Part shown: positions 11,211 to 52,814 of the stretch, piece after piece
How positions within the stretch are numbered: position 1 is the stretch's first letter
Layout of the letters: every line of letters starts with the position of its first letter
Assembly (NCBI RefSeq): GCF_000328685.1
Contig: NC_019974.1
Location: 921,001 to 985,000, forward strand
Direction of reading: 5' to 3'
Origin: Natronococcus occultus SP4
Lineage (GTDB): Archaea; Halobacteriota; Halobacteria; Halobacteriales; Natrialbaceae
DNA: 64,000 nt
Position numbers and translations under genes: made by a program
The notes under the pieces: model-generated
Database searches by the model: none
What the model was told of the DNA's origin: nothing
What the model saw: only the letters and a program-made list of their open reading frames with translations

Positions 11211-11240
11211 GGCTACTCTCGTCTACACCGTTCGACTCGG

Positions 11241-11635: not shown

Positions 11636-11722
11636 ACCCGTTGCTCGAAGGCCGACCACCGGGAAGCTGTCGGTTTCGGCGACACCGACACCCCTTTGCC
11701 CGCACTCCCGCGAAAGTGAACC

Positions 11723-12655
11723 GTGGCAGCCGCGACGTCGGAGGGAGTCACACCGGACGAGGACGCCGTCGAAGAGCCGATCGAGACGGTCCGGCTCACG
11801 CGGTCGGTCGCCGCCGGGCTGGTCCTCGTCTCGGTCGTCGGCTTTTTCGCGTCGGTCTACGCGTTCGGCGCCGTCCTCGCCGCGAGTTATGGAACCAGTC
11901 TCGAGCCGATCGTCCTCTCGGCAGACGCGCTCTCGAGCGGGCGGCTCCTGCTTGGCGCCGTCGGACTGGGGCTGCTCTCGGTCGTCGCCCACGAGCTCCT
12001 CCACGGGCTGTTCATGGCCCGCTACGGCGACGCGCCGTCCTACGGCGTCGGCGTCTCCCTGATCTTTCCCTACGCCTACGCCCGCGGCGACGCGAGCTAC
12101 GGGCGCAACCAGCTGCTTGCCGTGCTGCTGGCACCCCTCGCGATCGGGACCGCCGGGGGCATCGTCGCGATGGCGATCTTCCCCTCTCCGGTCTGGATCG
12201 TTCCGCTGGCGGTCAACGCCGCCGGCTCGGTCGGCGACCTCTGGATGGCGCTCGCGCTCTGGCGGCACCCCGCGGACGTTCGGATCGGCGAACATCCGCG
12301 GCCGAACGCCCGCGGGTTCGGTATCTACGCTCCCGACTCCGAATCCGATCCCAACGACACCGTCGAGAATCGGCGACGACCCCTGGCCGACTTCCTCTCA
12401 CGGACGCTCGCGGGAACCGCCGTCGTCGCAGTCGCGCTCGCGGCGCTCCTGAGCGGGCTGGTCTTTCGCTCGCTCGCGGTCGGCACTGGAACCGTCGTCG
12501 TCGACGTCGGCCCGTGGACCCTGCTTCGCCACGAACTCCACACCGGCGTCGTCGTTCTCGAGATCGGGGCCGGCCCCCTCACGGTCCTCGCGGTCGGGGG
12601 CGGGCTCGTCTGGGCGCTGGTCGGAACCGTCTGGGACGTCCTCGGGAAACCGTAA
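11723..12655 (+). CDS. DUF3267 membrane metalloprotease-like protein
   Basis: 310 residues, GTG start. Six or so membrane helices; helix 3 ends in VVAHELLHGLFM, an HExxH zinc motif at the membrane face, followed by a GVGVSLIFPYAYA segment and a conserved N-aa-GSVGDLWM helix, as in DUF3267/M50-like membrane peptidases. A hydrophilic insertion (about residues 190-225) separates the last helices. It might be a regulated intramembrane protease, but DUF3267 proteins have not been generally shown to cleave substrates. The PadR-like gene begins 31 nt downstream on the same strand and may be cotranscribed. Confidence 0.82.
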   Translation: MAAATSEGVTPDEDAVEEPIETVRLTRSVAAGLVLVSVVGFFASVYAFGAVLAASYGTSLEPIVLSADALSSGRLLLGAVGLGLLSVVAHELLHGLFMARYGDAPSYGVGVSLIFPYAYARGDASYGRNQLLAVLLAPLAIGTAGGIVAMAIFPSPVWIVPLAVNAAGSVGDLWMALALWRHPADVRIGEHPRPNARGFGIYAPDSESDPNDTVENRRRPLADFLSRTLAGTAVVAVALAALLSGLVFRSLAVGTGTVVVDVGPWTLLRHELHTGVVVLEIGAGPLTVLAVGGGLVWALVGTVWDVLGKP

Positions 12656-29598: not shown

Positions 29599-30891
29599 AT
29601 GGAAGACGAGACACCGCGGACCGACGAGGAGATCAAACGCGCAGTCATCGACAGAACCCGAGAGGTACAGCTGGCCGACGGTGACCCGGTCAGCGAGCAG
29701 CTCCTCGAGGACGTCTCCGTCGAGGACGGGGTCGTCACGTTCACGGTCGTCTTCGATCGGCTCAACCGACGGTTGAGCGAGCGCCTCTCGGATCAACTCC
29801 GGGGTGCAGGCCTCGCGACCGAGGGGATCGACCACGTTCGGATCGAGGCGACCGACGCCGAGGCACCCGAGAGCGGTCTTCCCGTGACGGGTGTCGACTC
29901 GCTGATCGCGATCGGCAGCGCGAAAGGCGGGGTCGGCAAGACGACGATCACCGCCGCGCTCGCGCGGGCGCTCAACGAGTCCGGACTCGACGTGGCGGTC
30001 TTCGACGCGAACGTCTACGCGCCGGACATCCCTGACCTGCTGGGTGCGGAGGGACCGGTCCAGAACACGCCCTCGGGACGGCCTAAGCCGATCGAGGCCG
30101 ACGGAATCGAGGTCGTCAGTCTCGATCTGATCGCTGAGGACGGCCCCGTCGCCTGGCGCGGCGCGATGGTCCACGACGTCCTGAAGGACCTGCTCGGGGA
30201 CGCGACCTGGGACGACCGGGACGTCCTGCTGGTCGATCTCCCGCCGGGGATCGGCGACGCCGTCTACACGATCGTCCAGCAGGCACCGCTCGACGGCGCC
30301 CTGCTCGTCAGCACGCCGACCGACGCCGGCGTCCGGGCGACCGAGCGCACCGGCGCGTTGTTTACCGCCAACGACGTCGAGACGATCGGCGTCGTCCCGA
30401 ACATGACCGCGACGGGAGCCGAGTCCTCTCCCTACGAGGGGGATGGACGCGAGCTCGAGGACGCGATCAACGAGGAGGCGATCGCGTCGATCGACCCCGT
30501 CCCCTTCGACTCCGCGCTCCGGACGCCGACGGCGTGTTCGTTCGGCGAGGACGGCTCGCCCGGCGAGCGGGCGGTCGCCGCGCTCGGCGAGACCGTTGCC
30601 GAGTTCGTCGCGGGCCGCGGCGGGAGTCGGGCGCCCGCGGACGCGATCGATCTACGCGGGCTTCCGCCCGAGACCTGTAAGCGACAGGCGATCACGGAGC
30701 TGGCCGTCAGTGACGGCGAGCTCACGCTGCTCTGTCGACACGACCCCGAGGAGCTGCGTGAGTCGATCGAGGAGACTCTCGCGTCCGACGGGAAGCGACT
30801 CGACCGGGTAGACATCGAGGATATCGGTCAGGAGGGCTGGGTCCTCGAACTCGAGACCGAGCTACTCGCGCGGTCGGAGCCGCTGGCCTGA
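29599..30891 (+). CDS. Mrp/NBP35-like P-loop ATPase with C-terminal DUF2249-like domain
   Basis: 430 residues in three parts: an N-terminal MIP18/DUF59-like segment (about 8-85), a MinD/Mrp ATPase (P-loop GSAKGGVGKTT, residues 106-116; switch DVLLVDLPPGIGDA), and a C-terminal stretch from about 352 (DLRGLPPETCKRQAITELA, CRHDPEEL) resembling DUF2249/TusA-like modules. The CxxC that holds the bridging Fe-S cluster in Mrp/NBP35 is missing where expected (GVVPNMTATGAESSP). It may help mature the molybdoenzyme or its Fe-S beta subunit encoded 316 nt downstream; DUF2249 proteins are frequent in denitrification loci. An alternative is a replication or partition role, as it starts at the origin. Confidence 0.82.
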   Translation: MEDETPRTDEEIKRAVIDRTREVQLADGDPVSEQLLEDVSVEDGVVTFTVVFDRLNRRLSERLSDQLRGAGLATEGIDHVRIEATDAEAPESGLPVTGVDSLIAIGSAKGGVGKTTITAALARALNESGLDVAVFDANVYAPDIPDLLGAEGPVQNTPSGRPKPIEADGIEVVSLDLIAEDGPVAWRGAMVHDVLKDLLGDATWDDRDVLLVDLPPGIGDAVYTIVQQAPLDGALLVSTPTDAGVRATERTGALFTANDVETIGVVPNMTATGAESSPYEGDGRELEDAINEEAIASIDPVPFDSALRTPTACSFGEDGSPGERAVAALGETVAEFVAGRGGSRAPADAIDLRGLPPETCKRQAITELAVSDGELTLLCRHDPEELRESIEETLASDGKRLDRVDIEDIGQEGWVLELETELLARSEPLA

Positions 30892-31003
30892 GTCATCGAC
30901 CCGATCTGATCTGGCTCGATCCCACGTTTGCGTCCTCGATTCGGACGCTGTCCGGAACGGTTTTCGAACGATCCGAAACGGTGTCTCGTTCCATCTTCCT
31001 CAC

Positions 31004-31026
31004 CCCGTTATAAACTCCCCGCTATA
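31004..31026 (+). promoter_or_regulatory. Shared upstream element of the molybdoenzyme operon
   Basis: CCCCGTTATAAACTCCCC followed by GCTATA, about 200 nt before the alpha-subunit start. A near-identical element is at 36876-36898, before the HTH regulator. The palindromic TTATAA flanked by C-runs could be a TATA box plus BRE, a regulator site, or both. The rest of the 316-nt gap (30892-31207) has no gene I can support. Confidence 0.65.
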
Positions 31027-31207
31027 CCGTGGTTTCCGGGCCGTTCGTACCCATTCGGTGGGAACAGACGTGTCTGGTTAAAGAATAGCCTCCCAACGGT
31101 ATCCTGTATGAAACACGGACAATCGGAACCCACGGAACGCCATCCGTGCCGGGCAACGACTGCACCGTCCGTCGGCTCTCTCCGGGCGACGGTTACGGGG
31201 TGGTACC

Positions 31208-34200
31208 ATGGCTGAGGACGACGCCGGCATCGAGATGACCCGCCGCGAACTCGGCGCCGCGGCGGCCGGGGTCGCCGGTGCCTCCGGACTCGGTCTGCTT
31301 GGTTACCGACGGCTCTCGGGTGATGCGGACGAGACGGCCGAGGACGGCCCGATGAACCCCCTCGAGGAGTATCCGAACCGGGAGTGGGAGGAACACTACC
31401 GCGACGTGTGGGAGCCCGACGACTCCTACATGCTCACGTGTACGCCCAACGACACCCACAACTGCTACCTCGAAGCATCCATCAAGAACGGCCAGGTTAC
31501 CCGCCTCGGTCCCTCGATGAACTACGGCGAGGCGACGGACCTGGACGGCAACCAGGCGACCCAGCGCTGGGACCCCCGCGTCTGTAACAAGGGTCTGGCG
31601 ATGATCGAGCGGTTCTACAGCGACCAGCGAGTCCAGGCCCCGATGGTTCGAGAAGGGTTCAGACAGTGGGTCGAGGACGGCTTCCCCCGCGAGGACGACG
31701 GCTCGATGCCCCAGGAGTATGCCAACCGCGGCGAGGACGACTGGGTCGAGATGGAGTTCGACGAGGCGTACGAACTCGCTGCGGAAGCGATCTACAATAT
31801 CGCCGAAAACTACAACGGTGACGCGGGCGCACAGCGGCTCCTCGAGCAGGAGTACGACGAGCGCGTCGTCGAGGAGACCGAAGGGATCGGCACGCAAGTG
31901 CTGAAGTTCCGCGGCGGGATGCCCCTGCTCGGGATGATCCGACTGATGGGGATGTACCGCGTCGCGAATCAGATGGCGCTGGTCGACCAGCACATCCGCG
32001 ATGTCGACGAGACCGAAGCCGTCGGCGGCGTCGGCCTGGACAACTACTCCTGGCACACTGACCTGCCGCCGGGACACACGATGGTTACCGGCCAGCAGAC
32101 CGTCGACTTCGACCTCGTGAACGTCGAGTACGCGGACCACGTCATCCTCGCGGGGATCAACTTCCTGACGACGAAGATGGCCGACTGCCACTGGCTGACC
32201 GAGGCCAGACTCAAGGGCACGAAGGTCACCGGCGTCTTCACCGACTACAACGCGACGGCCTCGAAGTGCGACGAACTGGTCGTGCTCCGTCCGGCGACCG
32301 ACTCCGCGCTGTTCCTCGGTGCGGCCAAGATCATCATCGAGGAGGAACAGTACGACGAGGACTACGTCCGTCGCTTTACCGACCTCCCAATGCTCGTCCG
32401 CATGGACGATAAGTCGCTCCTGCGTGCGAGCGACGTCGTCGAGGGCTACGAGCCCGCCGACCTCGAGAAGACGATGGTCGTCGAGGACGACGAGGACCGA
32501 CCCCGGGAGGGGACGACCGAGGTCTGGGAGAACGTCCTCACTGAGGACCTTCGCGACGAGTGGGGTGACTTCGTCGTCCGCGACGAGGAGAGCGGTGAGC
32601 TCGAGCCCGTCACGCGCGACGAGATCGGTGACGACTTCGACGTCCCGGCGAGCCTCGAGGGTAGCTTCGAGGTCGAGACCGTCGACGGCGAGACCGTCGA
32701 GGTCCGTCCCGTCTTCGACTTGATCAAGCAGCACCTGATCGACACCTGGGACGCCGAATCCGTCGCGGAGGTCACCGGTAGCTCGCCGGAGGCCGTCGAG
32801 AATCTGGCCGCGGACGTCGCGGACAACCACGAGAAAACGCTCATCCTCACGGGGATGGGACCGAACCACTACACGAACCAGGACCAGAAGGACCGCGCCG
32901 TGTTCCTGCTGGCCTCGCTGACGAAGAACGTCGGCCGCCACGCCGGCAACGTCGGCAGCTACGCAGGTAACTACCGTGGCGCATACTTTAACGGCCGCGA
33001 CCAGTGGATCTACGAGGATCCGTTCGATCCCGAACTCGATCCCGACTCGGACGTCGACATCCGGAATACGACGACGGCCCAGTCGGCCCACTGGTACTCC
33101 AACGGCGACCGTCCGCTAAAGATCGAGGGCGAGTACCACATGGGTGACTCGCATATGCCGACACCGACGAAGCTGCTGTGGGTGTCGGGTTCGAACTCGA
33201 TCCTGGGCAACGCGAAGGGTTCCTACGATATCATCGAGAACATGCTTCGTAACGGCCGGATCGAGGCCTTTTTCACCAACGAGTGGTGGTGGACGGGGAC
33301 CTGCGAGTACTCCGATATCGTCTTCCCGGCCGACTCGTGGGCCGAGCACAACATGAACGACATCACGGCCGCGGTGACGAACCCGTTCGTGATGGCGATC
33401 CCCACGACCGAGATCGACCGGATCTACGATACCCGTAACGACGCGGAGATCTACGCGGGCGTCGCCGAGAAGCTCGGCGAACTTCTCGACGACGACCGGT
33501 TCGAGGACTACTGGGCCTTTATCAATGAGGAGGACACGGCCCGGCCGTACCTCCAGCGGATCATCGACCACTCGAACACCGTCAAAGGGTACGACATCGA
33601 CGACATGCTCGACGAGGCCCGCGACGGGACGCCGAAGCTCATCCAGACCCAGACGTACCCGAAGAAGGTCGGTGGCCGTCAGGCCGTCGACGGTGACCCC
33701 TGGTTCACGAAGACCGGTCGGATGGAGTTCTTCCGCGAGGAGGAGCTGTTCACCGAGGCCGGCGAGAACATCCCGCTCCACCGCGAGCCGATGGACGGGA
33801 CGTTCTACGAGCCCAACGCCATCGTCTCCGGCGACGATCACCCGATCATCGATCCCGAGACCCCGGAGGACTTAGACTGGGACGAGGATCGCCGCGACGG
33901 CGACGCCCGACAGGTCCGTAACCGGATCTACACGCCGGAGGAGCTCACCGACACCGAGCACCCGCTCAAGGAGCTCGACGAGGGGTACGACTACAGCTAC
34001 ATGACACCGAAGTACCGCCACGGTACCCACACCTTCGCGAACTCGCTACCGAACATCGCGGTCTGGTGGGGTCCCTTCGGCGACATGGAGCGCCACGACG
34101 AGCGCAAGCCCTACTACGGCGAGGGGTACGTCGAGATGAACCCAGAGGACATGGAAGAGGAGGGCTTCAACGACGGCGACTACGTCTGGGTCGACGCCGA

Positions 34201-34717
34201 CCCCGAGGACCGGCCGTACCGCGGCGCCGACTCCGAGGACGAGGACAACTACGCCCGCGCGAAGATGCGCGTTCGTAGCCAGCCGGCGATGCCACGGGGC
34301 GTCACCCGCAGCTGGATGAACCTGAACGGCGCCTCCCACGGTACCGTCGAGGCCCACAACGACGAGGACGGCGACGGGATGGCGGTCAACGAACAGACCG
34401 ACTACGCGTCGCTGTACCGGCAGGGGAGCCACCAGAGCGCGACCCGAACCTGGTTCCGGCCGACCCTGCTGACCGACGACATGGCCCGGAAGAACTACGG
34501 TGGGCAAAACATCGACGTCGGCTTCGAGATGGACGTTCACGTCGCTAACGGCGCGCCAAAGGAGTCGTTCGTCAAGATCGAGAAGGCCGAGGACGCGGCC
34601 CACGAAGAGGACGAGGAACAGTGGATGCCCGACCGGAAGGGAATGCGACCCGCGGGCGAGGACGAATCGATGGAAGAGTACCTGAGCGGTAACTTCGTGA
34701 CGACTTCCGACGACTAA
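31208..34717 (+). CDS. NXR/p-side NarG-type molybdopterin oxidoreductase, alpha (catalytic) subunit
   Basis: 1169 residues, type II DMSO reductase family. A Tat signal ([19 protein letters not shown], residues 9-27) puts the active site outside the membrane. The Fe-S cluster motif is Cys78-x3-Asp82-x3-Cys86-x39-Cys126 ([10 protein letters not shown]), with Asp replacing one ligand as in Nitrospira-type NxrA and archaeal p-side NarG. The Mo-ligand aspartate is probably D285 in [12 protein letters not shown], with Y280 at the spacing of perchlorate reductase's gate tyrosine. Possible reactions: nitrate, chlorate or perchlorate reduction, or nitrite oxidation; sequence cannot decide. The C-terminus ([16 protein letters not shown]) is normal. 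Followed at 16 nt by the beta subunit. Confidence 0.92.
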
Positions 34718-34721
34718 CACA

Positions 34722-34728
34722 AGGTGAT
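34722..34728 (+). promoter_or_regulatory. Strong Shine-Dalgarno site of the beta subunit
   Basis: AGGTGAT, perfectly complementary to the archaeal 16S rRNA 3' end, ends 5 nt before the ATG at 34734. It confirms this start and separate, efficient translation of the beta subunit in the operon. Confidence 0.8.
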
Positions 34729-34733
34729 TACAA

Positions 34734-35942
34734 ATGGCTGAAGTATACAACTGGCAGATCGGACGCGAGATGGAGTACCCCTACGCAGAGTCCCGACCGG
34801 AGAAGCAGTGGGGGGCCGTCTTCGACATCAACAAATGTATCGCGTGCCAGACATGTACGCTGTCGTGCAAGACGACCTGGACCCACGGCGAGGGCCAGGA
34901 GCACATGTTCTGGAACAACGTCGAGACCAAACCCTACGGCTCCCATCCCATCGGCTGGGACAAGGAGATACTCGAGGAGCTCGGCGTCGGCGAGTGGACA
35001 GAACAGGACGGCGAGTACGTGTACGAGGGAGACACGATCTTCGAGGCCAACGACGTCGACTGGGAGGATATGGAGCCCGACGACGATCCCCAGAACATGC
35101 ACGGCGAGGGGATCGAGGGCTACCTGCCCGACAGCGAGGACTGGGCCTACCCCAACCTCGGCGAGGACGAGCCGGCCGGCGAGCAGTTCCAGGCGGACAC
35201 GCATATCTCGGAGGATCAGGAGACCCACCCGATGTGGTTCTTCTACCTCCCGCGGCTGTGCAACCACTGCTCGTTCGCGGGCTGTGCCGGAGGGTGTCCG
35301 GTCCAGGCGGTCTACAAGCGCGAGGAAGACGGGATCGTCCTGATCGACGAGGAGAACTGCGAGGCGTACCAGGAGTGCGTTCGGGCCTGCCCGTACGGCA
35401 AGTCCGTCTTCAACACCGAGAAGAACGTCTCCCAGAAGTGTGTCGGCTGCTACCCGAAGGTCGAGGAAGGGCTCGTCCCGCAGTGTTTCGAGAACTGTCT
35501 GGGCAAGATCCGCCAGCACGGCTGGATCAACCCGCCCGAAGAGGCCGACTCCTCGAACCCGATCGACTACCTCGTCCACGACGCCGAGGTCGCGCTGCCG
35601 CTGTACCCCCAGCTCGGCCTCGAGCCCAACGTCTACTACATTCCGCCGATCAACGTCCCGGACGATTACCTCGTCCAGATGTTCGGTCCGCGGGTCAAAG
35701 AGGCCAAGGAGACCTACCAGGCCGCCCGTCGCGGCGACGAGGAGTACCGCAAGCTCCGCGGCCTGCTCCACCTGATGGGGTCGACCGAGTGGCGCGTCGA
35801 GGAGTTCGAGGTCACCGACGAGGAAGCCATCGGCTACGACGAGGACGGCTCGACGGTTGCTCGCGTCCCGATGGAGGAACCGCAGTACGAACGCGACCTC
35901 TACGACGAGGAGAACGACGCCTACCGGCTCGACATCACGTAA
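34734..35942 (+). CDS. NXR/NarH-type iron-sulfur beta subunit
   Basis: 402 residues with four cysteine groups: CIACQTCTLSC, CNHCSFAGCAGGCP, CEAYQECVRACP and KCVGCYPKVEEGLVPQCFENC, for four Fe-S clusters passing electrons from the molybdenum subunit to an outside partner. The start VYNWQIGREMEYPY and the segments WNNVETKPYG and ALPLYPQLGLEPNVYYIPP closely recall NxrB of Nitrospira and related NarH/PcrB proteins. No signal peptide: it would ride out with the Tat-exported alpha subunit. An acidic insertion (about 75-145) between the first and second groups is a lineage feature. Confidence 0.93.
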   Translation: MAEVYNWQIGREMEYPYAESRPEKQWGAVFDINKCIACQTCTLSCKTTWTHGEGQEHMFWNNVETKPYGSHPIGWDKEILEELGVGEWTEQDGEYVYEGDTIFEANDVDWEDMEPDDDPQNMHGEGIEGYLPDSEDWAYPNLGEDEPAGEQFQADTHISEDQETHPMWFFYLPRLCNHCSFAGCAGGCPVQAVYKREEDGIVLIDEENCEAYQECVRACPYGKSVFNTEKNVSQKCVGCYPKVEEGLVPQCFENCLGKIRQHGWINPPEEADSSNPIDYLVHDAEVALPLYPQLGLEPNVYYIPPINVPDDYLVQMFGPRVKEAKETYQAARRGDEEYRKLRGLLHLMGSTEWRVEEFEVTDEEAIGYDEDGSTVARVPMEEPQYERDLYDEENDAYRLDIT

Positions 35943-35944
35943 CC

Positions 35945-36733
35945 ATGACCGCAATCACTCACGTTCACCGCGCACGACTGTACAAGCTCGCCTCGATGGC
36001 GTTCGACCGCCCCGACGAGCAGTTCGAGGAGGCACTGCTCTCGGGAACCTTCGAGCAGCAGCTGCTCGAGTCCGCCGAAGCGCTCGGTGGTGAGGACCTC
36101 GAGGAACACGCCACGACGGTAGCCGAGGCGGCACCGTCCGACGAGGACGGCATCGACGACCTCTACTCGGACTGGGCCACGCTGTTTGGTTTCGAGGAAG
36201 GTGGAAACATCTCTCAGTACCAGATCGAGTACAGTCCGGGAACGCTCGTCACCAGTACGGATGTGCTGGCCGACATTTCGGGCTTTTACGGCGCGTTCGG
36301 CCTCTCGATGGACGAGGGGAACCGCGATCGCGTCGACCATCTCTGCATCCAGCTCGAGTTCCTCTCGCACCTGGCTCTGCAGACGGCCTACCTCGAGAAC
36401 GAGGGCGACGAGACCGGTGTCGAGGTCGTGACCGACGCCCAGGGGAGCTTCCTCGAGGACCATCTCGGACGCTGGACCGGACGGTTCCGCGAGACGCTTT
36501 CGGAGGACGCCGACATCGAGTTCTACCGAGCGCTCGCGTCAGTGGTCGACGTGCTCGTCGCCGACGACACCGACCGGTTCGACGTCGAACCGAAGGAGTT
36601 CGACGAGACGCAGCCCTCGCCCCTCGAGGGACTTAACGACGGAGAGGGTGACTTCCGCTGTGGGACCTGTGGTGCGACGCCCTCGGGATCGACCGCCGAG
36701 ATGCCGATGGGTGACCGAAAGGGTCCCTACTAA
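35945..36733 (+). CDS. TorD/DmsD/NarJ-like molybdoenzyme chaperone
   Basis: 262 residues, all-helical, from ATG 2 nt after the beta-subunit stop. RARLYKLASMAFDRPDEQFE is the usual first helix; LYSDWATLFGF, SQYQIEYSPGT (the family's E-Y-xx-S/P element), DISGFYGAFGLSMD and DHLCIQLEFLSHLALQTAYLE follow, as in the type II chaperones SerD/DdhD/EbdD. It should hold the alpha subunit until cofactor loading is done and proofread Tat export. Unusually it ends with a glycine-rich tail holding CGTCG (near residue 240), a possible metal or disulfide site. Confidence 0.88.
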   Translation: MTAITHVHRARLYKLASMAFDRPDEQFEEALLSGTFEQQLLESAEALGGEDLEEHATTVAEAAPSDEDGIDDLYSDWATLFGFEEGGNISQYQIEYSPGTLVTSTDVLADISGFYGAFGLSMDEGNRDRVDHLCIQLEFLSHLALQTAYLENEGDETGVEVVTDAQGSFLEDHLGRWTGRFRETLSEDADIEFYRALASVVDVLVADDTDRFDVEPKEFDETQPSPLEGLNDGEGDFRCGTCGATPSGSTAEMPMGDRKGPY

Positions 36734-36875
36734 CTATCCGTTCAGTTCCATCCGATCTCGCGTTCTTTCGATCCGAGTCACCTTCGAGCCCGGCTCCAGC
36801 TCGACCGTTTGCCGACGGCACGCGGACCGGCTCCGAACCCGAGATGGTTCACGGATTTTCCCGTCCGTCTTCACT

Positions 36876-36898
36876 CCCCGTTATAAACGCCCCCGTAT
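36876..36898 (+). promoter_or_regulatory. Second copy of the shared element, before the HTH regulator
   Basis: CCCCGTTATAAACGCCCCC then GTATA, 55-75 nt before the regulator's ATG. Sixteen or so positions match the copy at 31004-31026. Points to co-regulation, likely with the regulator acting on both. Confidence 0.65.
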
Positions 36899-36951
36899 AT
36901 TTTGGGCGTCAATTGGTACGAATCCCACCAAAAGAAGGGAGTAGAACGACG

Positions 36952-37320
36952 ATGTCCGCGACGAACTCCACTACTGATTCCGCTTCCCCGCTATCGACCG
37001 AGACCAACGCCGACACCGGCACCGTCCTCGCGGCCCTCGAGGACGGCGATTGCCGAGCGATCCTCGAGGCGACGGCCGACGAGGCCCTGACCGCCGCCGA
37101 ACTCGCGAGCCGCTGTGAGATCCCATCCTCGACAGTGTACCGCAAGCTTGAGCTGTTGACCGACGCCGGCCTGCTCGAGGAGCGAATCCGCATCCAGATG
37201 GGTGGCAAACACGCCAGCGAGTACTGCCAGTGTTTCGACGAGATCTCGATTTCCGTGTCGGATATCGACGGCGTATCAATCGACGCTTCCGGGGCGGGAT
37301 CGAGTGCGCTCTCCGACTAA
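36952..37320 (+). CDS. Winged-helix regulator linked to the molybdoenzyme operon
   Basis: 122 residues. After a Ser/Thr-rich N-terminus (1-22) comes TVLAALEDGDCRAILEATA, ALTAAELASRCEIPSSTVYR (recognition helix), KLELLTDAGLLEERIRI and the wing GGKHASEYCQCFD. The Cys pair CQC in the C-terminal strand could sense redox state or metal, but one such pair alone is weak evidence. It lies 218 nt behind the chaperone gene and shares a promoter element with the oxidoreductase gene, so it probably controls this operon. Its closest visible relative is the fragment at 1..178, which has DQ in place of CQC. Confidence 0.85.
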   Translation: MSATNSTTDSASPLSTETNADTGTVLAALEDGDCRAILEATADEALTAAELASRCEIPSSTVYRKLELLTDAGLLEERIRIQMGGKHASEYCQCFDEISISVSDIDGVSIDASGAGSSALSD

Positions 37321-43600: not shown

Positions 43601-43812
43601 TGAGGACGAGGATCGGCGATTCTCGAACCACTTGCCCCGAGGTAGTTCACTGCAGTCGGTCGACGAATACCCGTTGGACGTCCCTCGGCTGTCGATCGGA
43701 CCGATTCTTCGTGACGAACGGGGTAGTCGTTGTGCTGACGATCGTTTGCGGGCGTCCTCGCGCGACGAAAACGGATGCTGGTGCTCCTACGGGCCGAAAC
43801 GGGAAGAATCAC

Positions 43813-43820
43813 CCTTATAT
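43813..43820 (+). promoter_or_regulatory. TATA box of the nuo operon
   Basis: CCTTATAT about 35 nt before the nuoA ATG, giving a transcript with a 5' leader of around 10 nt. Confidence 0.55.
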
Positions 43821-43852
43821 GCGTGGACTCTGAAGCCTCGAACGTTATCGAG

Positions 43853-44266
43853 ATGAATGACTGGATCGCTATCGGCGCGCTCGCGCTCGTGGGACTGCTG
43901 ATACCGCTCGGGATGATGGCGGTATCGTACCTCCTGCGGCCGAGCGTCCCCGAAACGAGCAAACGTGCCACCTACGAGAGTGGCGAGGTGCCGACCGGCG
44001 GGACGCGCATCCGATTCAATATCCAGTACTACATGGTTGCGCTTCTGTTTCTCGTCTTCGACATCGAAACCGTCCTGCTGTTTCCGTGGGCGGTCGTCTA
44101 CCAGGATGCGCTCGCAGCCGAGGAGTACGGACTCGTCCACGCCCTCGGTCCGATGGTCGCGTTCGTCGTCATCCTGCTGATCGGCTTCGCCTGGGCGTGG
44201 CGAACCGGTGCCGTCCAGTGGGCGAGGACGCAGGAACAAGTCGAAGCTGGAGCTGATCGATCATGA
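43853..44266 (+). CDS. nuoA: NADH-quinone oxidoreductase subunit A
   Basis: 137 residues from ATG at 43853. Three helices and the family motif YESGEVPTGGTRIRFNIQYYMVALLFLVFDIE (split; the conserved E and FDIE) identify NuoA. It sits in the membrane arm next to the quinone site. First gene of the operon; overlaps nuoB by ATGA. No start upstream of 43853 is supported by family length. Confidence 0.95.
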   Translation: MNDWIAIGALALVGLLIPLGMMAVSYLLRPSVPETSKRATYESGEVPTGGTRIRFNIQYYMVALLFLVFDIETVLLFPWAVVYQDALAAEEYGLVHALGPMVAFVVILLIGFAWAWRTGAVQWARTQEQVEAGADRS

Positions 44267-44970
44267 GCAGCGACAAACCACGGCAAGACATCTACGAGAG
44301 TACCGCTCCGTCGACCGACACTCGCGAGGCACGGATGGGGGCCGGTCCCGACGACCGATTCAACTCGAAGCTTCGGGAGGCGTTCGGATCGACCCCGTTC
44401 ATCCTCACGAAGTTCGACCAGTTCATGAACTGGGTTCGGGGGAACTCGATGTTCATGCTACAGTTCGGGATCGCCTGCTGTAGCATCGAGATGATGCACA
44501 CGTACGCGATCAAACACGACCTCGACCGGTTCGGCGCGGGCGTTCCCCGAGCCTCGCCGCGCCAGGCCGACGTGATGATCGTCCCGGGAACGATCGTCTC
44601 GAAGTTCGGGCCCCGGATGAAGCGGGTCTACGACCAGATGCCCGAACCCAAGTTCGTCGTCGGGATGGGGTCGTGTACGATCTCCGGGGGGCCGTTCCAG
44701 GAGGGATACAACGTGGTCAAGGGAGCCGAGGAGATCATTCCCGTCGACATCCACGTTCCCGGCTGCCCGCCCCGACCGGAGGCGCTGATCTACGGCGTCG
44801 CCAAACTGCAAGAACGGATCCGCAACGGCGAGACCTCGCCCGTCGTGGTCAAACCGTACGAACTCGAACAGTTCGGCGACCTGCCGAAGGACGAACTCGT
44901 ACAGAAACTCGCGGACGACATCGACGAGGACGATCTCGTCATGCGGTACAACTGGGCTGATTCACCATGA
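44263..44970 (+). CDS. nuoB: NADH-quinone oxidoreductase subunit B
   Basis: 235 residues. Ligands of terminal cluster N2 are in [11 protein letters not shown] (tandem Cys), MGSCTISGG and [13 protein letters not shown]-terminal 60 residues are a polar extension. It passes electrons to quinone. ATGA overlaps on both sides with nuoA and nuoCD. Confidence 0.97.
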
Positions 44971-46619
44971 GCACGGGCGTCGAACGAGAGGCACGGGAGC
45001 TCACAGAGGACGAACTCGAGGCGTTGATCGGTGATCGTGCGCTCAGACGCGACGATCACCTCAACGCGCCCGGCTTCGTCATCCGCCCGGACGATGTGCA
45101 GGACGTCCTGTTCGATCTCCGGGACCAGGCAGGGTTCGATCACCTCTCCTGTCTGACCGCACAGCAGTACGAGGACCGATACGAGTCGATCTACCACCTC
45201 CGGAAGTACGCCGACCCGACCCAGGAGGTGTCGGTCATCGTTCCGACGAGCGTCGACGACCCGGTCAGCCAGAGCGCCGAGCCGGTCTACCGGACCGCCG
45301 ACTGGCACGAGCGGGAGGCGTTCGACCTCGTGGGGATCGACTACGAGGGACATCCGGACCCGCGCCGGATCCTCCTGCCCGAAACCTGGCAGGGCCACCC
45401 CCTCTCGAAGGACTACGATCAGGAACAGCCCCAGGTCGTCACCCTCACCGAGCACGCCAACCCGATCCAGCCCGACCACCACGACGAGGAGTCGGACACG
45501 ATGTTTCTCAACATCGGTCCCCACCATCCGGCGACCCACGGCGTGCTCCACGTCAAGACGGTGCTCGACGGCGAGACCGTCGTCGACATCGATCCCGACA
45601 TCGGCTACCTCCACCGCTGCGAGGAGCAGATGTGCCAGCAGGGGACCTACCGCCACCAGATCATGCCCTACCCCGACCGGTGGGACTACGTCTCGGCCGG
45701 CCTGTTGAACGAGTGGGCCTACGCCCGCACGGCGGAGGATCTGGCCGACATCGAGGTCCCCGAGTACGCCCAGATCATCCGAACGATGGGCGCCGAACTC
45801 TGCCGGATCGCCTCGCATTTCCTGGCGCTCGGGACCTTCGCGCTGGACGTCTACGGCGACTTTACCGCCGTCTTCCAGTACGCGTTCCGCGACCGGGAAG
45901 TCGTCCAGGACATCCTCGAGGACCTCACCGGCCAGCGGCTGATGTTCAACTACTTCCGGCTCGGGGGGGTCGCCTGGGACCTGCCCGAGCCCCGCGAGGA
46001 GTTCTTCGAGAAGACGCGGGACTTCCTCGACGGCCTCCCCGCGAAGACAAACGAGTACCACAATCTCCTCACCGGCAACGAGATCTTCCAGATCCGGTGT
46101 AACGACACGGGCGTCCTCGAACCCGAAGTCGCCAAGTCCTACGGCTGTACGGGCCCCGTCGCTCGCGCCTCGGGAGTCGACTACGACCTCCGGCGTGACG
46201 ACCCCTACGGCTACTACGAGAACCTCGAGTGGGACGTCATCACCCGCCAGGGCTGTGACAACTACGCCCGCGTTCTCTGCCGGATGGAGGAGGTCGAGGA
46301 GTCGGCAAAGATCATCGAGCAGTGTCTCGACTTACTCGAGGACTGGCCCGAGGACGACCGTGAGATTCAGGCCAACGTTCCCCGGACGCTCAAACCCGAT
46401 CCCGACACGGAGATTTACCGGGCCGTCGAGGCCGCGAAGGGCGAGCTGGGCATCTACATCCGGTCGGACGGTACCGACAAGCCGGGCCGGTTCAAGATCC
46501 GCAGCCCGTGTTTCCACAACCTCTCGGCACTTGAGGAGATCAGCGAAGGGGAGTACATCCCCGACCTGATCGCCTCGCTCGGAAGCCTCGATATCGTGCT
46601 CGGTGAGGTGGATCGATGA
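44967..46619 (+). CDS. nuoCD: NADH-quinone oxidoreductase subunit C/D fusion
   Basis: 550 residues: NuoC-like part about 1-165 ([20 protein letters not shown], then [19 protein letters not shown]) and NuoD-like part from about 180 ([15 protein letters not shown], the quinone-site His, LHRCEEQM, and a C-terminal RIRSPCFHN-like [10 protein letters not shown]). These form the hydrophilic quinone module. Fusion is standard in haloarchaea. ATGA overlap with nuoH. Confidence 0.96.
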
Positions 46620-47701
46620 TCGAGGGGCCGTTCCTCCAGACCGGTGATACCGTGTTGCTCCCCGAGCGGCTCGGCGACCTGCTCGGCCTGGATCAGTTCG
46701 GGCTCGCCGGTGAGCTACTCGCGGCGTTTCTCGCCGCCTTCATTATCGGCAATCTGATGCTGGCGATGACCGGCGTCGCCGGCCCGTGGGCGAAACGGAA
46801 GATCACCGCCGCGTTCACGGACCGGATCGCCGTCAACCGGCTCGGGCCCGCCGGCCTGTTTATCATCGTTGCCGACGCGGTGCGACTGCTCTCGAAGGAA
46901 AACATCATTCCCGAGAACGCCGACCGCCCGGCCTACGACCTCGCGCCGATCGTGGTCGCGTCCTCGGCGCTTTTGGGCTTCGCGGTGATCCCGATGGGAA
47001 GCGGGATCCACCTCGCCGACCCCGAGGTCGGTCTGGTGTTCGTCTTTGCGGTCGCCGGCATCGCGAGTCTCGGTCTGGTGATGGCCGGCTACTCGTCGGC
47101 GAACAAGTACTCGATGCTCGGCGGATTGCGTGCGGTCGCACAGAACGTCGCCTACGAGATCCCGCTCGTCGTCACCGGGATGTCGGTCGTGATCTTCACC
47201 GGCTCCCTGCAGATGAGCGAGATCGTCGCCGTCCAGAACCAGCCGCTGGTCGATCTCGGTGTGGTCGCGATCCCGCAGTGGTTCGCGATCGTCAACCCGT
47301 TCGCGTTCGTGTTGTTCCTGGCGGCGAACTTCGCGGAAGTCGGTCGCAACCCCTTCGACACGCCGGAGGCCCCGACCGAGATCGTCGCGGGATATCAGAC
47401 CGAGTACTCCTCGGTCTACTTCGTGTTGATGTATCTCGGCGAGTTCCTGCATATCTTCCTGGGCGGGGCGATCATCGCGACGATCTTCCTCGGCGGCCCC
47501 GCCGGACCCGGCCCCGAGGCGATCGGGATCGTCTGGTTCATCATCAAGATCTGGGGCGTCTTCCTGCTGACCCAGTGGATGCGGTCGGCGGTGCCCCGGG
47601 TTCGGATCGATCAGCTGATCGAAATCGGCTGGAAGGGACTGCTCGTCCTTTCGTTTGCCAATCTCATACTGACCGCGGTAATCGTGGGGATCATCCAATG
47701 A
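46616..47701 (+). CDS. nuoH: NADH-quinone oxidoreductase subunit H
   Basis: 361 residues with eight or so helices; the signature loops are [21 protein letters not shown] (with I in place of A), [22 protein letters not shown] and [20 protein letters not shown], lining the quinone chamber. ATGA overlaps with nuoCD and nuoI. Confidence 0.96.
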
Positions 47702-48159
47702 TCGGACTACTCAAATCGATGGCAACGACGATGAAACACGCGTTAGACGGCTCGACGTTCACCGTCGAGTACCCCGAAACCGCGCCGGACGTCTCGCCGC
47801 GCTTTCGGGGAGTCCACAAGTTCAGCCAGGAGCGGTGTATCTGGTGTCGCCAGTGCGAGAACGTCTGTCCGAACGATACGATCCAGATCGTGATGGACGA
47901 CCAGCGCAACGGCGAACAGTACAACCTCCACATCGGACAGTGTATCTACTGTCGACTCTGCGAGGAGGTCTGTCCAGTCGACGCCATCCTGCTCACCCAG
48001 AACTTCGAGTTCACGGGCGATACCAAACACGATCTGGTGTACAACAAAGAGCAGCTGAAAGCGGTACCGTGGTACAAGGATATCGATCCGCTCGAGTCAC
48101 GCGAACCCGACCGGGGTGCGTGGATCGGCGAGGGTGACGGAGAGGTCGATTACCAGTAA
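47698..48159 (+). CDS. nuoI: NADH-quinone oxidoreductase subunit I
   Basis: 153 residues from the ATG overlapping the nuoH stop (47698-47701). Two 4Fe-4S motifs, CIWCRQCENVCP and CIYCRLCEEVCP, carry electrons to NuoB. With no NuoEFG encoded nearby, NuoI is the likely docking site of the unknown electron donor, probably a ferredoxin or another carrier; this is inference from how such 11-subunit complexes work in archaea. Confidence 0.96.
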   Translation: MIGLLKSMATTMKHALDGSTFTVEYPETAPDVSPRFRGVHKFSQERCIWCRQCENVCPNDTIQIVMDDQRNGEQYNLHIGQCIYCRLCEEVCPVDAILLTQNFEFTGDTKHDLVYNKEQLKAVPWYKDIDPLESREPDRGAWIGEGDGEVDYQ

Positions 48160-48199
48160 TCGGGCCGCCCGTCCCGAGAACGGGCAGACACATCCAACA

Positions 48200-48484
48200 A
48201 TGACATACGAGCTGATCGCGTTCGCGCTGTTCGCGTTCGTCACGCTCACCAGCGCGCTCGGCGTCGTGTTGCTTGCCGATCCGTGGCACTCGGCACTGAT
48301 GCTCGGCGTGACGCTGGTCAGCGTCGCGGTGTACTACGTGATGCTGGCGGCGGAGTTCGTCGCCATGATGCAGGTCCTCGTCTACGTCGGCGGAGTCCTC
48401 ATCCTCATCACGTTCGCCGTGATGCTCACCCAGCGCGAGGAGCCGGACGCGGAAACCGAGTCCGACGAGGTGGTACAGACATGA
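48200..48484 (+). CDS. nuoJ1: NADH-quinone oxidoreductase subunit J, first half
   Basis: 94 residues from ATG at 48200, three helices with VVLLADPWHSALMLG and AAEFVAMMQVLVYVGGVLILITFAVM, the N-terminal half of NuoJ including the conserved helix that links quinone site to pumps. It overlaps the next half by ATGA. Split nuoJ is a known haloarchaeal trait. Confidence 0.9.
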   Translation: MTYELIAFALFAFVTLTSALGVVLLADPWHSALMLGVTLVSVAVYYVMLAAEFVAMMQVLVYVGGVLILITFAVMLTQREEPDAETESDEVVQT

Positions 48485-48942
48485 GTAACAGACCCCAGCT
48501 CCGGCTGGGCGAGTCGCTGGTCCCGGGCGTTCTGGCCGTCGCGCTGTTCGGCGCGATGGCGATGATCGCGCTGAATACGGGCTTTGCCGACGAAATGGTC
48601 GGCTTTCCGGACGGCATCTCGGTAACCTCCGAGATCGGCTACGCGCTGTTTGACTTTACGGCCCTGCAGTCGACCGAGGGATCGATCGGCAACACCGAGC
48701 CGTTCCTCGCTTCGTTCCTGCTCATCGCAGTCGTTCTGGACGCCGCGCTCGACGCCGCGCTCGTCCTCGCGAAACGCGAGACGGAGGGCCAGCCCGTCGC
48801 TCCCCTCGCGAGCGTTACCGGGTCCGGTCCGGGAACGACGGGCAGCGACCAGATCGCCGCGGCGGACGGCGGCGACCTCGAGCGCGGGTCGCGCTCGGAG
48901 TCGACGGAGTCGACCGACGCCGAGGACGGAGGTGACGCCTGA
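48481..48942 (+). CDS. nuoJ2: NADH-quinone oxidoreductase subunit J, second half
   Basis: 153 residues. Helices at about 13-35 (GVLAVALFGAMAMIALNTG) and 78-100 (PFLASFLLIAVVLDAALDAA) match the last part of NuoJ; the final 50 residues are a polar acidic tail that the bacterial subunit lacks. Ends TGA overlapping the ATG of nuoK (TGATG). Confidence 0.88.
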   Translation: MSNRPQLRLGESLVPGVLAVALFGAMAMIALNTGFADEMVGFPDGISVTSEIGYALFDFTALQSTEGSIGNTEPFLASFLLIAVVLDAALDAALVLAKRETEGQPVAPLASVTGSGPGTTGSDQIAAADGGDLERGSRSESTESTDAEDGGDA

Positions 48943-49247
48943 TGGACGTCCCTATCGAGTACTTCGTCCTGCTGTCGATGGCGCTGTTTTCCATCGGCCT
49001 CTTTGGCATTCTGACGCGTCGCAACGCACTGATGTTCCTGATGTCCGTCGAGATTATGGTCAACGCGGCGAACATCAATCTGATCGCGTTCGCACTGTAT
49101 CACGGTAACCTCACGGGACAGGTGTTCGCGCTGTTTGCGATGGCGCTTGCCGCCGCGGAGGTCGCGATCGGGCTCGGGATCATCCTGGTGTTGTACCGTA
49201 ACTTCCGTGACGTCGACGTCACGGTTCCGACGACGATGAGGTGGTAA
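48942..49247 (+). CDS. nuoK: NADH-quinone oxidoreductase subunit K
   Basis: 101 residues, three helices. The conserved acidic residues are in LMSVEIMVNAANINLIAF and MALAAAEVAIGLGI, as in MrpC/NuoK proton channels. Spacing to nuoL is one base. Confidence 0.96.
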   Translation: MDVPIEYFVLLSMALFSIGLFGILTRRNALMFLMSVEIMVNAANINLIAFALYHGNLTGQVFALFAMALAAAEVAIGLGIILVLYRNFRDVDVTVPTTMRW

Positions 49248-49248
49248 G

Positions 49249-51288
49249 ATGGAAGGGTTATTCGACTACGCACCGGCGATCGCGCTGTTCCCGCTTGCGG
49301 CGTTCGTTATCGCTCTCGCCTTCGGGCCGAAGCTGCCCAAGAAGGGGGCGATCCCGGGCATCGTCGCGACGGGTGGCTCACTGGCCCTCTCGCTTGCGAT
49401 GCTCGCGGCCGTCGCGGGCGGCGAAGAAGGATACTACCACGAGACGCTGTTCACCTGGGCGGCCGGCGACGCCGCCGGCGAGATCGGCACCGACGCCATC
49501 GAGTTCACGTTCGGCATCCTGATCGATCCGCTGGCCGCGCTGATGCTCGTGATCGTCTCGCTGATCGCGTTTCTCGTTCACGTCTTCAGCCTTGAGTACA
49601 TGAACGCCGAGGGCGAGACCGGACTCCCGCGGTACTACGCCGGGCTCGGCCTCTTTACGTTCAGCATGCTCGCGTTCGTCTACGCGGACAACCTGCTGAT
49701 GGCGTTTATGTTCTTCGAGCTGGTGGGGCTGTGCTCGTTCCTGCTGATCGGGTTCTGGTTCCGCACCCGCTCGGCGCCCTCGGCCGCGAAGAAGGCGTTC
49801 CTGGTCACCCGCTTCGGTGACTACTTCTTCCTGATCGGGGTCGTCGCCATCGCCGCAACCTTCGGCACGCTCCAGTTCGCCGGTGACGATTCGTTCGTCG
49901 CCGCGGCCGAGACGGCAATCGACGACGGCGGCCAACTGTTCGGTTTCGACGCCGAGACTTGGGTGACGATCACCGGACTGCTCGTCCTCGGCGGGGTCAT
50001 CGGGAAATCCGCCCAGTTCCCGCTTCACACCTGGCTGCCCGACGCGATGGAGGGTCCCACCACCGTCTCCGCGCTGATTCACGCGGCGACGATGGTCGCG
50101 GCCGGGGTCTACCTGGTCGCCCGGATGTTCGGCTACTACGCCCTCTCGCCGACGGCGCTTGCGATCATCGCCTTCGTCGGCGGTTTCACCGCGCTGTTTG
50201 CGGCGACGATGGGCGTCGTCAAAGACGACATCAAGCAGGTGCTGGCGTACTCGACGATCAGCCAGTACGGCTACATGATGCTCGGGCTCGGCGTCGGCGG
50301 CTACGTCGCCGGGGTCTTCCACCTGATGAACCACGCCTTCTTCAAGGCCCTGCTGTTCCTGGGGGCCGGCGCCGTCATCATCCTCATGCACCACGAACAG
50401 GACATGTGGAAGATGGGCGGCCTGAAGAACAAGGCGCCCGTCACCTACTACACGTTCCTCGCGGGCGCGCTCGCGCTCGCCGGGATCATTCCGTTCTCGG
50501 GCTTCTGGTCGAAAGACGAGATCCTCTACGACGCCCTGATCGTCGGCGTCGAACAGCCCCTGATCATGGCAGCCTACGCGATGGGACTGCTCGCCGTCTT
50601 CTTCACCGGCTTCTACACCTTCCGGATGGTGTTCCTGACGTTCCACGGCGAACCCCGCTCGGACGTCGCCGAGGACCCACACTCCGTCGGCTGGGCGGTG
50701 AAGTTCCCGCTCGCGTCGCTTGGTGTCCTCGCGCTGGTGGCCGGCGTCGCCAATCTCGCGCCGGTCGCGAAGCTCACCGGTGCGGAGATCGAGTTCCTCA
50801 ACGAGTGGCTCAGCGGCGGCGTCGAGGGAACGACGTACGCTGCCTACACCGACGCGCTCGCGGCGGTCTACGACACCGGCTACATCGGCACCGAGTCGAC
50901 GACGGTGCTGGTCGCGGCGGGACTGTCACTGCTGCTTGCCTTCTCGGGTGCCGGACTAGCCTGGAAGCTGTACAACGTCCCCGAACCGGTCGCCCACAAG
51001 GAGCGACTCGGGAACGTCCGCGAGACGATCGAGTCCAACTACTACCAGGACGAGTACCAGGTCTGGCTCGCCGAGGGGCTGACCCTGCCGCTGTCCCGTG
51101 CCGCGGATCGATTCGACCAGACCGTCATCGACGGGACCGTCGATGGCGTCTCGTCGGTGAGTCTGTTCGGTAGCGACCGCGTCAAGCGGATCCAGACAGG
51201 CATCGTGACCAACTACGCGGCGTTGATCGTCGCCGGGTTCATCGCCTTGCTTGTCGTCCTCGGCGTCCTCGGAGGGTGGTTCCTATGA
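49249..51288 (+). CDS. nuoL: NADH-quinone oxidoreductase subunit L
   Basis: 679 residues, antiporter-like pump subunit. Key segments: LMAFMFFELVGLCSFLLIGFW, SAQFPLHTWLPDAMEGPTTVSALIHAATMV, and the lysine/His-bearing helix FFKALLFLGAGAVI. The C-terminal part includes the long lateral helix region found in NuoL. ATG of nuoM overlaps its stop. Confidence 0.97.
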   Translation: MEGLFDYAPAIALFPLAAFVIALAFGPKLPKKGAIPGIVATGGSLALSLAMLAAVAGGEEGYYHETLFTWAAGDAAGEIGTDAIEFTFGILIDPLAALMLVIVSLIAFLVHVFSLEYMNAEGETGLPRYYAGLGLFTFSMLAFVYADNLLMAFMFFELVGLCSFLLIGFWFRTRSAPSAAKKAFLVTRFGDYFFLIGVVAIAATFGTLQFAGDDSFVAAAETAIDDGGQLFGFDAETWVTITGLLVLGGVIGKSAQFPLHTWLPDAMEGPTTVSALIHAATMVAAGVYLVARMFGYYALSPTALAIIAFVGGFTALFAATMGVVKDDIKQVLAYSTISQYGYMMLGLGVGGYVAGVFHLMNHAFFKALLFLGAGAVIILMHHEQDMWKMGGLKNKAPVTYYTFLAGALALAGIIPFSGFWSKDEILYDALIVGVEQPLIMAAYAMGLLAVFFTGFYTFRMVFLTFHGEPRSDVAEDPHSVGWAVKFPLASLGVLALVAGVANLAPVAKLTGAEIEFLNEWLSGGVEGTTYAAYTDALAAVYDTGYIGTESTTVLVAAGLSLLLAFSGAGLAWKLYNVPEPVAHKERLGNVRETIESNYYQDEYQVWLAEGLTLPLSRAADRFDQTVIDGTVDGVSSVSLFGSDRVKRIQTGIVTNYAALIVAGFIALLVVLGVLGGWFL

Positions 51289-52814
51289 TGATCGAAGCAC
51301 TTCTCGCGGTTACACTGATCGGTGCACTGGTAACCTTCGTCGCGCCGAATCGTCTCGCCGGTAAACTGGCCTTCGCGATCAGTCTGATCCCCGCCGGGCT
51401 CAGCCTGTGGATGTTCTCGGCGTTCGACGGCAGCGGGAACGCCTTGCTCGACGGCGAACTCGCCTTCGAGTCCCAGTACGAGTGGATCCAGCTGGGCGAG
51501 TACACGATCTCGTGGCTCGTCGGCCTCGACGGCATCAGTCTACCGCTTGTCGTGTTGACGACGATACTGACCTCGCTCGCGATCATGAGCTCCTGGACGC
51601 CGATCGACGACCGCGAGTCCCAGTTCTACGGGCTTGTGCTGTTCATCGAGGCGAATCTGATCGGCGTCTTCGCGGCGCTTGATTTCTTCGTCTGGTTCAT
51701 CTTCTGGGAGGCCGTGCTGATCCCGATGTACCTGCTTATCGGTGTCTGGGGCGGCCCACGCCGGAAGTACGCGGCGATCAAGTTCTTCGTCTACACGAAC
51801 GTCGCCTCGCTGTTGATGTTCGGTGCCTTCATCGTGCTGGTCTTCAGTCTCGGCGACGCCGTCACGAGCTTCGCGCTGCCGGAGGTCGCGACGGCGATGC
51901 TAAATGGCGGGCCCGAGGCGTTCATGGGCGTTGCAGGCTCGACGATCGCCGCGGCGGTGTTCGTGGCGATGTTCCTCGGGTTCGCCGTGAAGGTCCCTAT
52001 CGTCCCCTTCCACACCTGGCTGCCCGACGCCCACGTCGAGGCACCCACGCCCGCCTCCGTGCTGCTGGCGGGTGTGTTGCTGAAGATGGGGACCTACGCT
52101 TTGCTGCGGTTCAACTTCACGATGTTCCCCGATCAGGTCGAAGCCTACGCGGTGCCGATCGCGGCGATCGCGGTTATCAGCGTCATCTACGGTGCGATGC
52201 TGGCGCTGGCCCAGACCGACCTCAAGCGAATCGTCGCCTACTCCTCGGTGTCGTCGATGGGCTACGTCATCCTCGGGCTGATCGCCTACACCCAGTTCGG
52301 GGTCGGTGGCGCCACCTTCCAGATGGTCAGCCACGGGCTGATCTCCGGCCTGATGTTCATGGCCGTCGGCGTCATCTACAACGCGACTCACACCCGGATG
52401 GTCACCGACATGTCCGGGATGGCAGACCGGATGCCCGTCGCCGTCGGCATCCTCGTCGCCGGTGCCTTCGGCTACATGGGGCTGCCGCTGATGAGTGGCT
52501 TCTTCGGCGAGTACGCGATCTTCTTCGGCGCCTTCGGCTCCGGGCTGCTCCCGTACTCGCAGGTGTTTACCCCGCTGGCGATGTTCGGTATCGTCATCGT
52601 CGCCGGCTACCTGCTGTTTGCCCTCCAGCGGACCGTCTTCGGACCGTACCACCTGGAAACCGACTACGATGTGGGCCGCGCGCCGCTGCACGACGTCGCA
52701 CCGATGTTCGTGCTGCTTGGCATCATCATCGCCCTCGGCGTCGCGCCCGAACTGATCTTCGAGATGATTACCGACGCAGTCGATCCGATCCTGGAGAACG
52801 GAGGTGAGCTGTGA
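51285..52814 (+). CDS. nuoM: NADH-quinone oxidoreductase subunit M
   Basis: 509 residues from ATG at 51285, the first of a tandem ATGATG. Antiporter motifs: FIFWEAVLIPMYLLIGVWGG, VPFHTWLPDAHVEAPTPASV, and AYSSVSSMGYVILGL. About 14 helices. Proton pump; TGATG overlap with nuoN. Confidence 0.97.
   Translation: MMIEALLAVTLIGALVTFVAPNRLAGKLAFAISLIPAGLSLWMFSAFDGSGNALLDGELAFESQYEWIQLGEYTISWLVGLDGISLPLVVLTTILTSLAIMSSWTPIDDRESQFYGLVLFIEANLIGVFAALDFFVWFIFWEAVLIPMYLLIGVWGGPRRKYAAIKFFVYTNVASLLMFGAFIVLVFSLGDAVTSFALPEVATAMLNGGPEAFMGVAGSTIAAAVFVAMFLGFAVKVPIVPFHTWLPDAHVEAPTPASVLLAGVLLKMGTYALLRFNFTMFPDQVEAYAVPIAAIAVISVIYGAMLALAQTDLKRIVAYSSVSSMGYVILGLIAYTQFGVGGATFQMVSHGLISGLMFMAVGVIYNATHTRMVTDMSGMADRMPVAVGILVAGAFGYMGLPLMSGFFGEYAIFFGAFGSGLLPYSQVFTPLAMFGIVIVAGYLLFALQRTVFGPYHLETDYDVGRAPLHDVAPMFVLLGIIIALGVAPELIFEMITDAVDPILENGGEL

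Follow-up and report, generated by a model that had tools for sequence, protein, structure and literature searches.

To our knowledge, almost all of the nitrate found in nature is made by nitrite oxidoreductase (NXR), an enzyme whose origin has not been settled. Luecker et al. (2013, PMC3578206) offered the speculation that it came from a bacterial or archaeal donor that either reduced nitrate or oxidised nitrite. The NXR from Kuenenia catalyses nitrate reduction besides nitrite oxidation. In its catalytic subunit, NxrA, the ligands of the FS0 cluster are C67, D71, C75 and C115, N70 is the substrate asparagine and D275 is the ligand of molybdenum (PMC8387239).

Kuenenia NxrAB (PDB 7b04) and a set of bacterial NXR or NXR-like enzymes (Anammoxibacter, Planctomycetota, Actinomycetota, Chloroflexota MAGs) are the closest known relatives of a haloarchaeal enzyme encoded at positions 29599-37320 of a 64,000-nucleotide stretch of DNA (the window). 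The source is a 4.3-Mb genome of the genus Natronococcus, assembled in three contigs. The operon is intact and runs in the order Mrp-type ATPase, alpha, beta and TorD/NarJ-type chaperone, with a helix-turn-helix regulator downstream (Table 1). The molybdenum-binding aspartate, the Tat motif and the alpha-beta-chaperone operon, which are features of the type II DMSO reductase superfamily, are all present. The Mrp/NUBPL ATPase is a probable Fe-S cluster carrier, and beta is expected to hold three [4Fe-4S] clusters and one [3Fe-4S] cluster. The twin-arginine motif of alpha is at residues 12-13. Beta has no export signal of its own and is therefore presumably exported together with alpha. Alpha is under purifying selection (dN/dS of 0.030/0.324 in the comparison with N. 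amylolyticus). The start of the regulator gene is uncertain, its relatives starting near 36952. This gene adjoins the operon in four Natronococcus genomes and possibly regulates it. No denitrification genes are adjacent to the window copy.

Table 1. Features of the operon, in window coordinates
Feature	Position	Strand	Basis or remark
Mrp/NUBPL (ApbC/NBP35-like) P-loop ATPase	29599..30891	+	first operon gene; Pfam PF10609, 4.6e-51
Alpha, NXR-like Mo-bisMGD catalytic subunit, 1169 aa	31208..34717	+	phmmer, tree, Foldseek
Tat signal of alpha, aa 11-28, without lipobox	31238..31291	+	read from sequence
FS0 motif C78-x3-D82-x3-C86-x39-C126, with N81 (substrate Asn)	31439..31585	+	alignment with Kuenenia NxrA
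Mo ligand D285 of alpha	32060..32062	+	aligned with D275 of Kuenenia NxrA, D170 of PcrA and the conserved NarG Asp
Gate residue Y589 of alpha	32972..32974	+	alignment column
Beta, NxrB-like, 402 aa, 15 cluster Cys	34734..35942	+	NxrB match; beta tree 100/100
TorD/NarJ-family assembly chaperone (Nitrate_red_del/TorD-type)	35945..36733	+	PF02613, 1.2e-17; TIGR03482, 104 bits (below cut-off)
HTH_20/ArsR-like regulator	36844..37320	+	PF12840, 3.1e-13

Judged from their sequences, both subunits are far nearer to NXR than to haloarchaeal NarGH. In phmmer searches of the PDB, the match of alpha to Kuenenia NxrA reaches 739 bits, those to PcrA and E. coli NarG reach 168 and 139 bits, respectively, and beta matches Kuenenia NxrB at 328 bits. 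Canonical haloarchaeal NarG gives the opposite pattern (PcrA 773 bits, NarG ~500, NxrA 188). The identity between alpha and Kuenenia NxrA is 37% across the whole length. The AlphaFold model of alpha, of which the overall fold match alone was used (mean pLDDT of 65, active-site loop 280-299 below 50), retrieves 7b04 first with Foldseek (E 2e-81), followed by PcrA (5e-43) and NarG (1e-35). The NCBIfam model TIGR03479 matches at 283 bits, under its cut-off of 984.75.

The residues around the cofactors point in the same direction. A reading of the sequence alone had claimed that alpha carries a Cys-x3-Asp-x3-Cys-x39-Cys motif and a 12-residue NXR-like segment, and that beta carries VYNWQIGREMEYPY and WNNVETKPYG. 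The alpha motif is indeed present, the segment is there too and contains Y280 and D285, and both stretches are found in beta. The Kuenenia residues C67/D71/C75/C115, N70 and D275 align with C78/D82/C86/C126, N81 and D285, all of which were invariant in the first alignment. The gate position is a tyrosine in Kuenenia NXR and in the window alpha, a glutamate in NarG and a tryptophan (Trp461) in PcrA. The FS0 site with three cysteines and one aspartate, the NYxWH block of alpha, its Tat motif and the N-terminal extension of the NxrB type in beta are also shared with bacterial NXR. Unlike the bacterial enzymes, the haloarchaeal ones have a "NEWWWT" block in place of "TDIEIT" and Ile, Met or Leu instead of the bacterial Lys at position 317; they also lack the NxrC/EB_dh gamma subunit and form a separate clade.

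Among 391 haloarchaeal genomes, a set of alphas is 64-100% identical to that of the window, followed by a gap down to about 34% and about 31%. The ~34% set, which we call group 2, consists mostly of proteins of 1050-1130 aa, and the ~31% set is canonical NarG, of about 950-1050 aa. In a scan across 84,980 species genomes, 32 of the loci retrieved were haloarchaeal and 24 were bacterial, the latter at 35-38%. The haloarchaeal hosts are Natronococcus, Natrialba, Natronorubrum, Halobiforma nitratireducens (which has two copies), Halovenus carboxidivorans, Halorubrum trapanicum, Natrinema thermotolerans, Haloterrigena, Halopiger, Halovivax, Halostagnicola and MAGs. The N-termini of these alphas are of two kinds, a Tat signal with a lipobox (LAGC or FAGC) and a Tat signal without the cysteine, as in the window, which suggests different modes of membrane attachment.

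Maximum-likelihood trees of alpha were computed from 59 rows (LG+G4) and from 23 rows (LG+C20). The haloarchaeal clade and the bacterial NXR/NXR-like clade, which includes Kuenenia and Anammoxibacter, are sisters; group 2 is the next branch, and haloarchaeal NarG, PcrA, NarG and ClrA lie outside. In the 23-row tree the supports are 100/100, 100/100 and 100/99, and the haloarchaeal and bacterial NXR groups each have 100/100. The trees were built without the enzymes of Nitrospira, Nitrotoga, Hydrogenobaculum and Beggiatoa, and the sister placement is relative to the sampled NXR only. In the beta tree, the betas of the haloarchaeal clade form one group (100/100) within a 100/100 group that also holds bacterial NXR and group 2. 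Neither subunit is placed inside haloarchaeal NarGH, so the proposal of an NXR-like molybdoenzyme stands as far as affinity is concerned, for both subunits and on the evidence of sequence identity, the ligands of FS0, the residue at the gate, the fold match and the trees. It needs correction in other respects, since alpha does not fall inside the NxrA clade as sampled from bacterial NXR and NXR-like proteins and the haloarchaeal proteins are a deep sister clade rather than members, the gamma subunit through which electrons leave NXR is missing, and the genomic context favours nitrate reduction in denitrification over nitrite oxidation. The family is thus best described, from the trees and gene content, as a predicted gamma-less archaeal sister lineage of NXR.

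Group 2 (e.g., on a plasmid of Halobaculum sp. CBA1158, L063) resembles the window enzyme in the NxrB-like N-terminal extension of beta and in the gate tyrosine. It differs by a Cys-x3-Cys-x3-Cys FS0 motif, by the presence of an EB_dh gamma subunit and by its distance in sequence (34% identity). Type II molybdoenzymes of this group (L061-L064, L066) are encoded in 13 out of 125 Natrialbaceae genomes and also by plasmids of Halobaculum.

The absence of Rieske and cytochrome b genes from the locus, which had been remarked on before, is confirmed and extends to the family. The 29 loci of the NXR-like type that were examined, as stretches of 13-26 kb, encode no heme-b gamma subunit (EB_dh), cytochrome b or Rieske protein; all three are present at five out of five canonical Nar loci, and gamma is found at all five group 2 loci. 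At the level of genomes, a short EB_dh gamma is found in 5/5 with canonical NarG and 13/13 with group 2, and in none of those with the NXR-like type alone. A search of the window's whole genome returned neither EB_dh (PF09459) nor NarI (PF02665), and a search run without a positive control gave no match to canonical Nar-type cytochrome b there. The chaperone is encoded at all 29 NXR-like loci and a Mrp homologue at 25 of them; Mrp homologues also occur near canonical Nar loci. The absence of an electron donor suits neither catalytic direction. In some relatives, mobB, modA/modB-like and HTH_10 regulator genes lie within the operon. Denitrifying conditions induce a mobA/modA operon in H. mediterranei (PMC11218638).

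The same genome has a second operon, 72% identical to the first, on the 288-kb contig C3, with alpha at 114.9-118.4 kb. A nitric-oxide reductase is encoded at 121.6-124.8 kb; about 25 kb from the operon, at 86-89.7 kb, lie nosZ and a nosD-like gene. The operon is also accompanied by a Ric/ScdA-type repair protein and by a divergent HTH_10 regulator of the NarO/DmsR kind, homologues of which flank canonical Nar loci as well. The C3 alpha begins with a Tat signal and a lipobox (LAGC). In this assembly it is split into 135 + 1048 aa (L033, G000 C3:106001-126000, 8819-12369) by a one-base deletion after GGGG, and it is intact in relatives (L100, L077). The dN/dS of its body is low (0.020/0.214).

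Among 125 Natrialbaceae genomes, 32 encode an NXR-like alpha and 5 a canonical NarG; there is no overlap, a pattern that is not significant (p=0.33). NirK is present in 25/32 genomes with the NXR-like alpha compared to 43/93 of the others (p=0.002), and full-length NosZ in 20/32 compared to 20/93 (p=4e-5); the genomes are related by descent and shared ancestry inflates both p-values. H. lacisalsi has NirK and NosZ, and its sole NarG/NXR-type subunit is the NXR-like alpha. Six NarG of Natrialbaceae were recorded as "longer" in a 2021 survey (PMC8400030), which saw no other difference in them and also noted nitrate-respiring species without canonical NarG. From their length and taxonomy, these longer NarG are apparently the NXR-like haloarchaeal family, and the earlier description of the system as undescribed has to be softened to that extent. 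Halobiforma species have also been listed with narG, narH, nirK and nosZ, and without narI (PMC11052009).

The lineage, the co-occurrence with denitrification genes, the C3 island and the earlier literature therefore favour nitrate reduction, with nitrite oxidation still conceivable. The enzyme, an alpha-beta molybdoenzyme that belongs to the NXR lineage and is predicted to lie outside the cytoplasm, probably serves respiration by reducing nitrate. A few observations qualify this picture. Of the two operons, only the one on C3 has denitrification genes nearby, and its alpha is the frameshifted one. NirK has no match in the window's genome, so the denitrification set of this genome is incomplete. 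The genome also encodes an assimilatory NasA, which, rather than the NXR-like enzyme, could be behind nitrate phenotypes; in our literature search, no paper directly described how Natronococcus responds to nitrate or nitrite. The looser of two motifs that were looked for, CGAAC-N4/5-GTTCG, has scattered matches; in a set of 26 upstream regions, three matches are exact, a raw count from which we draw no conclusion. The other, the denitrification promoter motif CGAAYATDKTYG (PMC10062603), occurs neither in the window nor in the scanned C3 stretches.

We propose that the Mrp ATPase and the chaperone would load Fe-S clusters and Mo-bisMGD in the cytoplasm, after which alpha would be exported through Tat, carrying beta along. 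Nitrate would be reduced to nitrite outside the membrane, at the molybdenum and opposite N81, with electrons coming in via the four-cluster wire of beta. The heme-b subunit that usually fills the role of donor (EB_dh/NarI) would not do so here; as a guess, the donor could be a halocyanin or an unlinked quinol dehydrogenase. Within Natrialbaceae, the family seems to replace canonical NarGH and would feed the NirK-Nor-Nos steps.

Canonical haloarchaeal NarGH (Haloferax/Haloarcula type) also consists of a Tat-exported type II alpha with a molybdenum aspartate, a beta and a chaperone, with a Mrp-like ATPase near some loci, and the survey cited above filed the six Natrialbaceae proteins under NarG with greater length as their sole distinction. 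It is nevertheless highly improbable that the window encodes such an enzyme with a long alpha: the bit-score pattern is reversed (NxrA is the best match here, PcrA for haloarchaeal NarG), the FS0 site of NarGH has three cysteines and one histidine (His-x3-Cys-x3-Cys), with His replaced here by Cys and Cys by Asp, the gate changes from Glu to Tyr, the identity is ~31% over part of alpha, the two are separated in the trees at 100/100, and gamma, cytochrome b and Rieske, present at all five canonical loci examined, are missing. This identity was rejected on lineage (tree, motif and gene content); the function may still match. The two copies might also divide the work, the C3 enzyme being the nitrate reductase of denitrification and the window copy, under the HTH_20 regulator, acting in the other direction or on another substrate. 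This reading, which overlaps with the others, is a possible but minority one. The copies do belong to separate subclades, their regulators differ (HTH_20 in the window, NarO-like on C3) and so do their N-termini (plain Tat and Tat with lipobox, respectively), but Y280, D285 and Y589 are identical in both, though the pocket neighbours 317, 320 and 321 differ, and many relatives with a single copy still have NirK and NosZ.

The reduction of another oxyanion (chlorate, perchlorate, selenate, iodate or bromate), or a promiscuous oxyanion reductase, is rather unlikely. Type II DMSO reductases are promiscuous, and the gate tyrosine differs from both the tryptophan of PcrA and the glutamate of NarG. 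PcrAB (4ydd) and ClrAB share the type II fold and the molybdenum aspartate with the window enzyme; however, they have an FS0 histidine ligand and are distant in the trees, ClrA has a glycine where N81 is retained here, and no chlorite dismutase was noticed beside the operon, unlike at the clr locus or at a plasmid locus (L130) described below. The remaining alternative, a true nitrite oxidoreductase, would work aerobically outside the membrane, its electrons going to an oxidase and halocyanin, and might supply supplementary energy in soda lakes. The potential of the NO3-/NO2- couple drops by ~59 mV per pH unit, and halocyanin would then be a feasible acceptor at pH 10. The closest characterised enzymes are NXRs, the FS0 aspartate, gate tyrosine and NYxWH block are NXR-like, and the chromosomal copy is unlinked to denitrification genes. 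We consider this alternative unlikely: neither an NxrC-type gamma nor NarI is encoded genome-wide, denitrification genes co-occur with the family and cluster with the C3 copy, the haloarchaeal sequences fall outside the bacterial NXR that were sampled, and some NXR relatives beyond the NXR clade, those of Hydrogenobaculum and Beggiatoa, are nitrate reductases according to their description (PMC8387239). That a gamma-less haloarchaeal NXR oxidises nitrite extracellularly, its sister lineage then being informative on the origin of bacterial NXR, is quite improbable. If the nitrite-oxidation reading were true, these would be the first nitrite-oxidising archaea.

On the favoured reading, respiratory nitrate reduction, the family may account for nitrate reduction in Natrialbaceae devoid of canonical NarG, having apparently been lumped with NarG so far. 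The clade, an archaeal and deeply branching sister of NXR, has the same cofactor set as NXR and no electron-exit subunit, and its presence in haloarchaea that are cultured and genome-sequenced would make it possible to probe which residues or partners fix the direction of nitrate/nitrite catalysis.

A few further observations concern related loci and the rest of the window. On a plasmid of Alisedimentitalea scapharcae (L130, NZ_CP123588.1), a chlorite dismutase, a type II alpha-beta pair, a TorD chaperone, a cytochrome c and a Mrp/NBP35 ATPase are encoded in one run; this is, by its predicted gene content, a (per)chlorate-type locus that has a Mrp partner too. In Natronococcus sp. A-GB7 and N. 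jeotgali (L039/L076 and L045/L096), the operon is at the same chromosomal site as in the window. The first 150 aa of the window alpha are ~91% identical to theirs and the remainder mostly 60-75% (with blocks of 53% and 88%), and identity remains at around 88-89% for Mrp and for the beta of N. jeotgali; the pattern looks like an in-place exchange of the catalytic body of alpha. Elsewhere in the window, a PIN-domain-like gene comes after a small ribbon-helix-helix-like one (5707-6338), and the two resemble a VapBC toxin-antitoxin pair. Two ORFs at 7461-8993 have a third-codon GC of 0.78-0.79, compared to ~0.9 in their neighbours, and are possibly a recent acquisition. The gene run at 43775-54343 resembles, by eye only, an NADH dehydrogenase-like complex I (nuo).
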